Shown here piece by piece: positions 16,258 through 20,475 of a stretch of DNA of 20,561 bases. The notes beneath the pieces are model-generated. The model ran no database searches, had not been told where the DNA came from, and saw only the letters and a program-made list of their open reading frames with translations. Position 1 is the stretch's first letter, and the number at the start of each line of letters is the position of its first letter. The stretch comes from a virus. The position numbers and the translations under genes are program-made. The DNA lies in the IMG/VR virus record IMGVR_UViG_3300036768_000091, positions 1 through 20,561 of that record; one strand, given 5' to 3'.

Positions 16258-16372
16258 GCAGACCATTGAAGGACTTACGGCTGACGCACTGATTAGCGTT
16301 GCGCTGGTCTGCCGCCCTTCGCACTCTTGGCACCAACCACCGAATGCCTAGTGGCGGAGTCACGCTGGTGCC
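16258..16372 (-). other. Two long-range inverted repeats in the terminase operon leader
   Basis: The first repeat pairs GCAGACCA (16258-16265) with TGGTCTGC (16305-16312), a perfect 8 bp across 39 nt. The second pairs GGCACCA (16329-16335) with TGGTGCC (16366-16372), a perfect 7 bp across 30 nt. Each encloses a smaller stem (ACGC/GCGT and CCAC/GTGG). They lie between the predicted TATAAG promoter and the small terminase start, so in the leftward RNA they would form two consecutive stem-loops. They could instead act as DNA, for example as a packaging site near terS. The role is unknown. Confidence 0.55.
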
Positions 16373-16389
16373 TACGTTGGCCTACACCC

Positions 16390-16419
16390 CTTATACCCGC
16401 GCCGCACAACTGGCGGCAA
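16390..16419 (-). promoter_or_regulatory. Putative late promoter for the terminase operon
   Basis: On the minus strand TTGCCG (16419-16414) and TATAAG (16395-16390) are separated by 18 bp. The -10 is the same as in the scaffold/coat and tail tube promoters and is preceded by a similar GC-rich spacer end. The -35 is weaker, matching consensus at three positions. The predicted start is near 16383, giving a structured leader of about 150 nt before the small terminase gene. Confidence 0.5.
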
Positions 16420-16790
16420 TCACAAACGGCAGCCCGGTGGCGGTAAACAACACGTTTATCAACAACTCTGCCGCTAGCGCAGCCGTTACACACTCCGCGA
16501 GTAGTTTACACCACGAGTTCCCTAGTTCCTCTTTTTTCCACTTTACCTTTTATTAGGAAAAAGTTGTTATATATACAAGAGAAAAGAAGAATAAAAGAGT
16601 AGGGCACGTTTCCGAGAAACCGAGAACCGTTGTTTTGTTGTGGCCCCCGTTGATGAAGCCCTCCACATTTGACAGACCACCGTCCTGTAATTTACACATC
16701 TATCTGCAAATTCAATCAGCAAACCAGCATCACAAATTGCACGACTTTATACATAGCTATACTTAAACACTTCCCGTAGGAAAGCGACCT
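16420..16790. promoter_or_regulatory. Divergent control region, AT-rich, no convincing gene
   Basis: This stretch separates leftward late genes from rightward early genes. From about 16500 it is clearly richer in A and T than the rest, with a purine-rich run at 16579-16600 and an alternating TA run near 16569-16575. A 13-bp palindrome GTTTC-CGA-GAAAC lies at 16608-16620, followed by a second CGAGAA copy. For rightward transcription I see TTGACA at 16669-16674 without a good -10, and TATACT at 16758-16763 with only a weak TTGCAC 15 bp upstream. Either could serve the gene at 16791. A phage operator or replication origin could lie here, but nothing decisive is visible. Confidence 0.5.
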
Positions 16791-17264
16791 ATGACGAACA
16801 AATTGATGAAGATGCTGTTTCCTCAGCTCTCAGATACCATGTCAAAAGAGCGCGCGGAAGTGTTTTTGAACGTGCTCGGCGCCGTGTTTGAAGTGCGCCA
16901 GAAGGGGCAGACCACGCAGTTGTTTTGGTTGGAAACCATGCCGGGTAGATACCGTCAGGCGGGGCGCGAAATCTCTGGCGACCAAGTCTGCGTATTCGGC
17001 CAGACGTTGCTGCGCACGCACGTGATCTGGGCGGTCCTAACCGGTGTCTTAGTCAGGCCGTCGGACGTACTTCAGACGCGCCCGTTGTTTAATGGCGATA
17101 AGGTGGACCCGTTGAATGCCGCCACTTGGCGCCTGTTTACCGGGGCCGCCGCCGCCAAGTTCAAGACGGCGCGGACGCCCCGCGCAGCCATGCGCTTACC
17201 GTATATCAATTACAAGGGTGAGCGAAAGGTAGCCGGCCGCCACCTGCATATTGCGGACTGCTGA
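16791..17264 (+). CDS. First rightward gene, unknown function
   Basis: A 157-residue basic protein starting MTNKLMKMLFPQLSDTMSKE, with AGGAAAG 6 nt before the ATG. It has a helical N-terminus (RAEVFLNVLGAVFEVRQKG), a short beta region (TTQLFWLETMPGRY), a polar middle with VDPLNAATWRLFTGAAAAKF, and a strongly basic C-terminal third (RTPRAAMRLPYINYKGERK). I recognise no family. As the first gene of the rightward cluster, immediately before the primase/helicase and its leader, it may be an early regulatory or DNA-binding protein, but there is no clear helix-turn-helix. Good codon continuity and ribosome binding site support it as a real gene. Confidence 0.72.
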   Translation: MTNKLMKMLFPQLSDTMSKERAEVFLNVLGAVFEVRQKGQTTQLFWLETMPGRYRQAGREISGDQVCVFGQTLLRTHVIWAVLTGVLVRPSDVLQTRPLFNGDKVDPLNAATWRLFTGAAAAKFKTARTPRAAMRLPYINYKGERKVAGRHLHIADC

Positions 17265-17266
17265 AC

Positions 17267-17296
17267 TAGACCATGACCGGGCTGCCCGTCTATAAT
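17267..17296 (+). promoter_or_regulatory. Putative promoter for the primase/helicase gene
   Basis: A perfect TATAAT (17291-17296) has TAGACC (17267-17272) 18 bp upstream, matching the -35 consensus at four positions. The spacer contains an 11-bp perfect palindrome CGGGC-T-GCCCG at 17278-17288, which could be an operator. The predicted start at about 17303 begins the structured leader RNA. The promoter lies right after the stop of the preceding gene. Confidence 0.6.
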
Positions 17297-17302
17297 GCGT
17301 CC

Positions 17303-17469
17303 CGTCGCGGGATTCCGCCTCCAGCCTTCTCAGTGCGTTGCGGCACCGGCGCCACGCACCTGTCTTCGTCGGCTCCAGTGTGTGGCCGAGTAGGCAAGGC
17401 CAACCCCGCGACACCTTACACGCAGATGAGGGCGCGCAACACCTTCATCCTTGCAGGAGCCGACCAAGA
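17303..17469 (+). ncRNA. Structured leader RNA before the primase/helicase gene, P4 immunity-like arrangement
   Basis: This 167-nt untranslated stretch holds two pairs of complementary segments. GTCGCGGG (17304-17311) pairs with CCCGCGAC (17405-17412), and GTCGGCTCC (17368-17376) pairs with GGAGCCGAC (17456-17464). The second pair covers the AGGAG ribosome binding site of the primase/helicase gene. The order A-B-A'-B' means the two helices cross, so they would form a pseudoknot or compete. Local hairpins also occur: GTGCG/CGCAC (17333-17359) and TGGCC/GGCCA (17383-17402). Phage P4 controls its primase gene through a leader with complementary segments and a small CI RNA; similarity to that design is inference. 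A 66-codon frame crosses the region but lacks a ribosome binding site. Confidence 0.5.
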
Positions 17470-19548
17470 ATGAGCACAACCCCGCGCAAGAAGGCAGCCG
17501 CCACGGCAGCCGCCGGTCTCACCGAAGCTGAGGTGCGCGAACGCATGCTTGTCAAGCTCCAGTCATCTGGGCTCACGGCGAAGGATGCGGTGGCTATGAG
17601 GTTAGTGCCGCTCACTAAAGCCGGCGCGGCTAAGCTCAAGCTGCCTAGCGTCAACGAGTGCTTCGTTATCCCCTACTTCGACTTGAAGGGCCGACCCACC
17701 AAGTTCTGGCGCGCACGATTCGTCGTGGATACGCGCAAGGGCTTCGACGTTTTAGCCGGCCGCAAGGCGCTGCGATACGTCCAGCCGGCAAACTCAGTCA
17801 CCGAAGCCTATTTACCGCCGTTGGGTGTAGATTGGACCGCCATCGCGCGCAACGCCGACGAACCGTTAGTGATTACCGAAGGTGAGCTGAAAGCGGCGTG
17901 CGCAGTACGTCACGGATTTCGCACTATCGGCCTTGGTGGTGTTTGGTCATTCCAAAGCACTAAGCACAATACCGCGTTGCTGCCTATTTTTCATGAGTTC
18001 GCGCTGTCTGGCCGTATGGTGTACATATGCTTCGACAGCGATGCGGCTACTAACCCCAACGTGGTGGCGGCCGAGCGCCGACTGGCCGAGCGCTTGTTAG
18101 AGTGCGGGGCCGTAGTCCACGTTGTTAGGCTCAAGCCTGGCAAGTCTGGTCAGAAGATGGGCCTAGACGATTTCATCGTGGAGTATGGCCCCGGAGATTT
18201 CCAAACGTTGCTGGACACCGCCCAGGAATACGAAGGCTCCGAAGTGCTGCATGAGCTAAACGAGTGCGTTGTCTACGTGCGCAACCCCGGTTTAGTATGG
18301 GACCACCGTCTGGGCACCCGCATGTCGCCTAGCGGCTTCGTCCAACATCATTACAGCGACTGGGTGTACACTGAGCGAGTCAAAGGCGCAAAATCTGATC
18401 GTTTGGTAGAAGTGCGCGCGGCAGAAAAGTGGCTCAAGTGGCCTGCTCGCGCCGCAGTAGACGGCCTGTCCTTTGCCCCTGGCCAAGATCGTATTACTCA
18501 AGACAACAAGCTCAACCTTTGGACCGGCTGGGGAGTGCCCGACGGCCCTATGGAGGGTGACGTCAGTCCGTGGCACCACCTGCTAGATCATTTGTTCCAG
18601 GATGAGCACGAAGCGCGTCAATGGTTTGAACGTTGGTGCGCGTACCCGCTCCAATATCCAGGCGCCAAGATGGCTACGGCTGCAGTATTGTGGGGGGTGG
18701 TTCACGGCAGCGGCAAGACCCTTGTCGGCCATACGCTCATGCGCATCTACGGCAAGCACGCTACCGAGATCAATGATGACGCACTCGATGATGAGCGGCG
18801 TGAGTGGGCTGAGAATATGCAGTTCGTGCTCGCCGATGACATCACGGCGCGTGGCGATCGTCGGTTTATGCGACGGCTCATGACCATGATTACGCAGAAG
18901 CTGCTGCGACTCAATCCTAAATACGTGCCCAGCTACACCGTCGAGGACGTCATCAATTACTACTTCACATCTAACGAGCCCGACGCTATCTACATGGATG
19001 ACCAGGATCGTAGATTTTTTGTACACGAAGTGCGGGCGGGCAAGTACAAAGACTACAAGGACTATGTCGCTTGGCGGGACAGCGTGAGCGGCATTGCGGC
19101 GTTGTGGTACTATCTATTGCACTTAGACCTGGGCGACTTCGACCCGCAGGCGCCAGCGCCGATGACCACCGCGAAGTCCACCATGATCGAGCTGGGCAAG
19201 AGTGAACTGGGTGCTTGGGTGCGTGAACTGCGCGATAATGCTGACGCAGTTCTCGACAAGTACAAGTTGCAGGGCGATCTGTTTAGCGCCCAGGAGCTGT
19301 ATGCCTTGTATGATAGTGCAGGCGACAAGCGGGCTTCGGTCAACGCCCTGGCACGTGAGTTAAAGCGGGCGGGGCTTCCGACTGCAGGTGGCCCGGATTC
19401 CAAGATCAAACGCCCTGACGGGTCCACGTTGCGTGTATACGCTGTGCGCAATATCGACAAGTGGTTGAAAGCCTCATGGAAAGAAGCGTGCGAGCATTAC
19501 GCTCACACGCACCCCCAGCTGATCAAGCGGTCAGGTGGGAAGTTCTGA
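17470..19548 (+). CDS. Bifunctional primase/helicase, TOPRIM-like plus SF3-like ATPase
   Basis: A 692-residue replication protein. ATG 17470 is chosen because AGGAG lies 10 nt upstream, although the frame is open further back. The N-terminal half resembles DUF3854/TOPRIM-like primase domains: ITEGELKAA with E137, and an FDSDA motif at 188-192. The C-terminal half resembles DUF5906/P4 alpha-type helicases: Walker A VVHGSGKT at 410-417, Walker B LADD with D456-D457, and a sensor asparagine in TSNEPDA at about N502, followed by DRRFFVHEV. A winged-helix-like tail ends the protein. No zinc-binding primase motif is seen at the N-terminus. It probably opens and primes phage DNA. Its expression may be controlled by the leader before it. 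Confidence 0.85.
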   Translation: MSTTPRKKAAATAAAGLTEAEVRERMLVKLQSSGLTAKDAVAMRLVPLTKAGAAKLKLPSVNECFVIPYFDLKGRPTKFWRARFVVDTRKGFDVLAGRKALRYVQPANSVTEAYLPPLGVDWTAIARNADEPLVITEGELKAACAVRHGFRTIGLGGVWSFQSTKHNTALLPIFHEFALSGRMVYICFDSDAATNPNVVAAERRLAERLLECGAVVHVVRLKPGKSGQKMGLDDFIVEYGPGDFQTLLDTAQEYEGSEVLHELNECVVYVRNPGLVWDHRLGTRMSPSGFVQHHYSDWVYTERVKGAKSDRLVEVRAAEKWLKWPARAAVDGLSFAPGQDRITQDNKLNLWTGWGVPDGPMEGDVSPWHHLLDHLFQDEHEARQWFERWCAYPLQYPGAKMATAAVLWGVVHGSGKTLVGHTLMRIYGKHATEINDDALDDERREWAENMQFVLADDITARGDRRFMRRLMTMITQKLLRLNPKYVPSYTVEDVINYYFTSNEPDAIYMDDQDRRFFVHEVRAGKYKDYKDYVAWRDSVSGIAALWYYLLHLDLGDFDPQAPAPMTTAKSTMIELGKSELGAWVRELRDNADAVLDKYKLQGDLFSAQELYALYDSAGDKRASVNALARELKRAGLPTAGGPDSKIKRPDGSTLRVYAVRNIDKWLKASWKEACEHYAHTHPQLIKRSGGKF

Positions 19549-20085: not shown

Positions 20086-20475
20086 ATGCGGAATAGCTGT
20101 CTAACCGGCAAGTCCAAAGCGCACATCGTCCAGCGCGCGACTGCGGTGCTGACGGCGCGGACTCATTATGAGGCGCTGGGGGTGCCGGTCACCGCCAGCC
20201 GGGACACGATCAAGTCGGCGCACAGAGAGCTAGCTGGGTTGTTTCACCCGGATCGCTGCGTACTAGACGCCGCCCATGACGTGATGAGTCGTGTCAACCA
20301 AGCCTATGCCTGTCTCAGCGACAAAGAGTCAAAGCGCTTGTACGACACGATTAACAAGATCCAGCGTCGGACTTGCGACGCCTGCGGTGGGAAAGGTTAT
20401 CGGTTCAAGCAACAGGGCTTCGGCAAAAGGCTCAGGACGCCTTGTGATAACTGCGGTGGGAGTGGTCAATGCTGA
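20086..20475 (+). CDS. Miniature DnaJ-like co-chaperone with one pair of zinc-finger repeats
   Basis: A 129-residue protein with GAGGAG 8 nt before the ATG. Residues 26-90 form a J domain: HYEALGV, a helix with TIKSAHRELAGLFHPD, the invariant HPD at 54-56, and VNQAYACLSDKESKRLYD. Two CxxCxGxG repeats follow, C97-C100 (CDACGGKG) and C120-C123 (CDNCGGSG), enough to bind one zinc ion. Full DnaJ has four such repeats and large C-terminal substrate domains, both absent here. J domains stimulate host DnaK. Next to a primase/helicase, a role in loading or remodelling replication proteins, as host DnaJ does for lambda, is plausible. A role in virion assembly cannot be excluded. Confidence 0.85.
   Translation: MRNSCLTGKSKAHIVQRATAVLTARTHYEALGVPVTASRDTIKSAHRELAGLFHPDRCVLDAAHDVMSRVNQAYACLSDKESKRLYDTINKIQRRTCDACGGKGYRFKQQGFGKRLRTPCDNCGGSGQC

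Follow-up and report, generated by a model that had tools for sequence, protein, structure and literature searches.

The window, by which we mean the whole stretch of DNA analysed here, is a 20561-base virus record in which the minus strand carries structural genes and the plus strand replication genes. The latter include a primase/helicase gene (17470-19548) whose 692-residue product contains the domains DUF3854 and DUF5906, the TOPRIM-like motifs TEGELK and FDSD, a Walker A motif (GSGKT) and an SF3-type helicase. The helicase part matches a phage primase with a solved structure (6K9C/6LRB). A first-pass annotation of this DNA had assigned the protein to the P4 alpha type, which is a fair description of its architecture only (TOPRIM-like motifs with an SF3-type helicase); the solved match of the helicase is another phage primase. 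The leader of the gene lies at the junction of the divergent gene blocks. Downstream of the primase, 20086-20475 encodes a DnaJ-domain protein with a zinc-finger-like tail, and a chaperone-like gene was also observed in the same block in the phages AXL3 and PW916, and perhaps in MW202621.

A promoter scan of 16300-17700 found one sigma-70-like site, TAGACC-18-TATAAT (-10 box 17291-17296), and no antisense promoter. Given that this is the sole promoter-like site, the predicted transcript 5' end falls at or beside segment A, in agreement with the first-pass annotation; A begins 7 nt past the -10 box, roughly where the transcript is expected to start. In relatives, a TATAAT/TATACT-like box was also seen just 5' of the strand corresponding to A. 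The parts of the leader, with the gene that follows, are:

17267..17296, + strand: sigma-70-like promoter TAGACC-18-TATAAT; transcription start expected near 17303
17304..17311, + strand: A, the 5' strand of stem P1, GUCGCGGG; exact complementarity, P1 arms swap test P=0.0002
17324..17331, + strand: possible inner continuation of P1, GCCUUCUC, pairing with 17388-17395 (GAGUAGGC) with one mismatch
17332..17344, + strand: C element, AGUGCGUUGCGGC (in relatives GAGUUACGGC); GUUGCG at 17337-17342 is complementary to C'
17351..17359, + strand: P2 5' strand, GCCACGCAC; recovered by blind search, P2 arms swap test P=0.001
17363..17376, + strand: extended B, UCUUCGUCGGCUCC, inside the 18-nt P2 loop; 13/14 pairs with B'
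17378..17386, + strand: P2 3' strand, GUGUGUGGC; recovered by blind search
17405..17412, + strand: A', the P1 3' strand, CCCGCGAC; runs on into GACACCUU (17410-17417), common to type II relatives
17425..17449, + strand: P3 hairpin, GAUGAGG[..GCGCAACA]CCUUCAUC; P3 arms swap test P=0.0002
17456..17469, + strand: extended B', GGAGCCGACCAAGA; Shine-Dalgarno (SD) region up to the start codon
17470..19548, + strand: primase/helicase gene, controlled by the leader in our proposal

Segments A (17304-17311, GTCGCGGG) and A' (17405-17412, CCCGCGAC) are exact reverse complements over 8 bp, as are B (17368-17376, GTCGGCTCC) and B' (17456-17464, GGAGCCGAC) over 9 bp. Both pairings, and the segment order A-B-A'-B', are exactly as the first-pass annotation had given them, with B' lying at the primase/helicase ribosome-binding site, AGGAG (the ATG is at 17470). 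An independent repeat search found a longer B/B' match, 17363-17376 (TCTTCGTCGGCTCC) with 17456-17469 (GGAGCCGACCAAGA), of which 13/14 positions are complementary, so that B' extends without a gap from the SD to position 17469, next to the ATG. This match was reached in none of 5000 dinucleotide shuffles of the leader. When the best contiguous helix in the window was compared with shuffles, p=0.037 was obtained for A and p=0.010 for B, and the joint P1+P2+B architecture scored above all 150 shuffles (p=0.0066). Features missing from the first-pass annotation are P2, whose loop holds B, the P3 hairpin downstream of A', and the complementarity of C to C' (CGCAAC, 17435-17440) in the P3 loop. The C/C' pair of the window carries a two-sided change, GUUGCG/CGCAAC versus GUUACG/CGUAAC.

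An open frame of 66 codons (17273-17473) spans the whole leader and overlaps the primase start as ATGA. It was rejected as a leader peptide: the frame begins upstream of the -10 box, is closed in most relatives and is probably a GC-rich artefact.

No close relatives at the DNA level were found in the phage collection. Protein searches of virus contigs and genomes yielded numerous primase homologues, of which the closest is 67% identical and some are carried by the isolated phages AXL3 and PW916; the leaders of these homologous genes differ in sequence and retain the helices P1, P2 and P3. The nearest lineages, which we call type I (the window, L002, L003, L009, L010, L011/L012 and L104), follow a common plan from 5' to 3': P1 5' strand, C, P2, A', P3, and B' at the SD. 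P1, formed by A and A', starts at the predicted 5' end in these lineages and near it in most leaders, while the P2 loop measures 16-33 nt and contains B. Their C element reads GAGUUACGGC, where the window has AGUGCGUUGCGGC, and their P3 loop carries C' as CGUAAC, where the window has CGCAAC. P1, P2 and the SD pairing are kept in the more distant L112, L122 and L016. The SD also pairs back into the P1 interior, usually the P2 loop, with B/B' pairs of GUCGGCUCC/GGAGCCGAC in the window, GGUGGCUCC/GGAGUCACC in L003, UAGCUCCC/GGGGGCUA in L122, UUCUCCA/UGGAGAA in L112 and CCUUAUAC/GUAUAAGG in L010; B/B' is weak in L009 and not clear-cut in AXL3. For AXL3, a GTG start with the SD GAGGAG was ruled out, as L051 reads GTG-TAA there. 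The longest leader, of ~290 nt (L010, 4638-4925), has two copies of CCGUAAC, one beside B within the P2 loop and the other in the P3 loop.

Compensatory changes, which the first-pass annotation had named as the observation that would support its pairings, are present in these relatives. Since a MAFFT alignment of the type I leaders was out of helix register, we used strand-swap tests on anchored regions. Exact permutation of strands between the 7 lineages, which abolished the pairing energy, gave P=0.0002 for P1, P=0.001 for P2 and P=0.0002 for P3; B against the SD reached P=0.057 in the same lineages, a weak value that reflects conservation of the SD and of its complement. With 11 leaders, the 5' arm against the 3' region (P1) gave P=1e-5 and the P2 loop against the SD P=0.0025. 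The best SD partner within P1, sought without reference to P2, was the B segment in 8/10 leaders, and the Fisher P values were 2e-4 for B and 2e-7 for A. SD-duplex energies of single leaders were mostly not significant against shuffles, a test that is too weak at that scale. C/C' was likewise not significant alone when taken leader by leader. A complement of this length is not rare in shuffled linkers, and since C and C' are mostly invariant, their pairing is based on few two-sided changes.

The type I helices had in part been picked by eye ahead of a blind search for P1+P2+B. That search recovered the helices in the window, L002, L003, L104, L011, L112, L122 and L016. At p<=0.02, 35/142 non-redundant primase leaders were positive in the joint search, compared with 6/141 control genes from the same loci and ~3 expected. 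P1 was the most widespread element, reaching p<=0.02 in 44/142 leaders versus 5/141 controls. Start codons in the survey were picked automatically and some are wrong (e.g. L009), which biases it against the signal. We also observed SD pairing with upstream segments of 9-15 nt in the leaders of L350, L450 and L471, including a 17-bp long-range stem in L471, with start codons again assigned automatically.

The element appears specific to this gene. The pattern GAGTTACGG-N20-40-GTCGGCTCC matched 11 stretches of the virus collection, of which 8 lie directly upstream of a primase homologue, including one previously not known (L104). The other 3, from one locus in two copies and from L106, lack a neighbouring primase homologue and resemble chance matches. 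Significant matches to a profile of the C-P2 block, run over the collected loci, were confined to primase leaders, looser motif scans gave only chance matches besides the known primase leaders among the matches listed, and no second motif copy was found in the records of ten relatives. None of the 4227 Rfam models matched the window or its relatives at the gathering threshold, and only chance matches were seen at permissive E-values. No published description of the leader was found in the literature searched, whose coverage stops short of subscription papers.

The leaders of more distant relatives (L047, L054, L055, L061, L067, L069 and others), which we call type II, have a P1, a P3 whose loop reads GCUGAG and, upstream, a CUCAGC complementary to it. 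RNAalifold predicted P1 and P3 without guidance, and 11/21 predicted pairs show two-sided changes. When P1, P3 and the loop pairing were specified, 96.7% of cells pair, and the covariation score was matched by 0/500 shuffles; a second alignment, which placed P1 worse, was set aside. The variable cells of P1 and P3 include G-U pairs and no A-C pairs, which points to selection on the plus-strand RNA. Among 25 leaders with CUCAGC paired downstream, 21 have a second GCUGRG copy, giving CUCAGC two alternative partners, and the pairs flanking this downstream helix also co-vary (swap P=0.007). Two copies of GCUGAG or GCUGGG that can each pair with one upstream CUCAGC suggest a two-state switch built into type II. 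Individual leaders in which GCUGAG or GCUGGG occurs twice, in the P3 loop and downstream, include L047, L048, L055, L067, L069 and L054, among others.

With E below 0.001 as the cut-off, a covariance model of type II (R1, relatives of L047/L061) matched more than 20 leaders, all of them primase leaders. Built without the window, this model placed its best match within 17200-17500 at 17302-17496 on the plus strand, aligning A/A' as P1 and sharing GACACCUU after A'. The match scores only 8.2-8.6 bits, with E=0.0017 over 301 bases and 4 over 913 kb. Types I and II are likely two forms of one leader family; the order of B and C differs between them. In L057 (2829-2994), L058 (823-996) and L072 (4364-4517), 100-500 nt separate the type II leader from the primase downstream; in L058 the leader seems to be followed by a small reading frame with an SD, AAGGACCCGAG, that is complementary to CUCGGGUC in the leader.

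We consider it probable that 17304-17469 is a conserved cis-acting leader RNA whose SD-covering pseudoknot fold regulates translation of the primase/helicase, perhaps autogenously. Comparison of the sequences supports a 5'-terminal stem P1 that encloses hairpin P2, with hairpin P3 after P1. It also shows complementarity of the SD region to the P1 interior, mostly to the P2 loop; pairing of the two would make an H-type pseudoknot. The P3 loop may in addition pair with C inside P1, a helix with weaker support than P1, P2, P3 or the SD pairing. Masking of the primase SD by crossing helices in a structured leader, the central proposal of the first-pass annotation, is thus supported by complementarity and by conservation in relatives. 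That annotation had left open a pseudoknot or a two-state switch. Two exclusive states fit less well than the pseudoknot, since the bases of A and B do not overlap and both helices are conserved, and since B sits in the P2 loop, in most leaders within 0-2 nt of the P2 3' strand, an arrangement like that of an H-type fold. Free folding of the window favours a nested fold with B/B' and without A/A', and nested P1+P2+P3 plus the two extra helices has an energy comparable to the best nested fold (pseudoknot penalties left out), so a stable pseudoknot and a switch are both possible.

The leader appears to hide the ribosome docking site, and probably sets the time at which phage DNA replication begins. 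In the folded state, the ribosome-binding site would be covered and primase/helicase translation low. Some trigger would stabilise or undo the fold, and so set the timing or amount of the replication protein. By analogy with T4 gp32 on its own leader pseudoknot, the likeliest trigger would be autogenous, with the primase/helicase or a partner binding the fold; a metabolite or a trans-acting RNA may instead play this part. More speculatively, and with rather less than even confidence, we suggest that these double loop-pseudoknot leaders, with two subtypes in many tailed phages, form a new class of RNA switch gating the primase/helicase, in which CUCAGC would give type II its two states and the primase or a metabolite would be sensed.

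Several other explanations were weighed against autogenous control. If the leader were a riboswitch that senses a metabolite or an ion, its compact pseudoknotted fold would be the aptamer and the SD pseudoknot the expression platform. The leader does combine a conserved structured domain with an SD-masking platform, as riboswitches do, and its conserved junction and loop motifs (GAGUUACGGC, CUCAGCAAG, GACACCUU), two loop pseudoknots and, in most type II leaders, a CUCAGC with alternative partners in the P3 loop and the downstream GCUGAGG could all be read this way. Known riboswitch classes usually recur in front of several genes, whereas this element was found upstream of one phage gene only, in a context that suggests no ligand, and we regard a riboswitch as unlikely. 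A 5' mRNA stabiliser or fixed translation throttle, with no regulated switch, would account for P1 being the most widespread element and for its position, in most leaders close to the predicted 5' end, at which a stem would impede 5'-end-dependent decay. Such a device needs neither SD complementarity, nor a P3 loop complementary to C, nor conserved loop sequences, which makes it quite unlikely in our judgement. The position beside the primase gene, at the junction of divergent gene blocks, could also indicate a direct role in replication, with the element supplying a primer or R-loop RNA or acting as a single-strand origin that the primase recognises. This is very unlikely: G-U without A-C pairs indicate selection on the RNA of the plus strand, a repeat search of 16260-17480 found no iterons or origin repeats, and a pairing aimed at the SD is irrelevant to an origin.

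The first-pass annotation had also related the leader to the immunity of satellite phage P4. In such a scheme, a small RNA processed from the leader would pair with complementary leader segments and halt primase expression in lysogens. There is a likeness, in that complementary segments precede the replication genes, including the primase/helicase, of the P4 alpha operon, as seqA, CI and seqC do (PMC4825925). The P4 CI RNA acts in the lysogen through premature transcription termination, by way of a processed RNA (PMC4825925). In the window, in contrast, nothing points to lysogeny or to a terminator, and the pairing covers the SD rather than an antiterminator. The integrase family PF00589 went unmatched in 12 relatives (some records being fragments) and was detected in control genomes, the isolated relative AXL3 is virulent (PMC7504290), and no terminator-like site was found on the plus strand of 16300-17700, in or after the leader, in a scan that does not cover Rho-dependent sites. 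We therefore set the relation to P4 aside as highly improbable. Chance complementarity in a GC-rich leader, to which the modest value for A/A' alone in the window might point, is hardly credible given the B/B' shuffles and the helices conserved in relatives.

Some known RNAs resemble parts of the proposed fold. In the SAM-II and preQ1-II riboswitches, the SD or adjacent bases pair with a hairpin loop in a pseudoknot, as predicted here; the leader of the window is much larger, has a single gene context and is unmatched in Rfam even at permissive thresholds. In the rep leaders of IncI and IncB plasmids (repZ/repA), translation is switched on by a pseudoknot whose loop is the target of an antisense RNA. 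The window similarly has a hairpin loop that would pair near the SD of a replication gene, but no antisense promoter was found in the promoter scan.

To our knowledge, translational control of phage replication genes by a leader pseudoknot is represented by essentially one textbook case, T4 gene 32. With the primase leader, which has no match in Rfam, there would be a second case, unrelated to the first and apparently widespread. Isolated phages, such as Stenotrophomonas phage AXL3 (type II), allow the leader to be tested directly. Annotators would gain a model for a leader that currently goes unannotated, and a new ligand- or protein-controlled RNA could emerge.

The gene 32 leader is alike in being the 5' leader of a replication protein mRNA and in holding a pseudoknot (PMC3014915), which in the window is predicted, with complementarity and covariation as its evidence. 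T4 gp32 and gp43 are precedents for autogenous control among phage replication proteins, and a 2010 review considered gene 32 possibly the only viral pseudoknot used in translational autoregulation (PMC3014915). In T4 the pseudoknot sits 67 nt ahead of the start codon and serves to nucleate gp32 on a ribosome-binding site that is A+U-rich and unstructured (PMC3014915). A similar coaxial H-type geometry is plausible in the leader of the window, which differs in that the SD itself would form one pseudoknot strand and in having P1 and P3 in addition. A cis-acting leader that masks the SD in a pseudoknot is of a known kind. What appears to be new is the family, with its two subtypes, and the gene that it targets.
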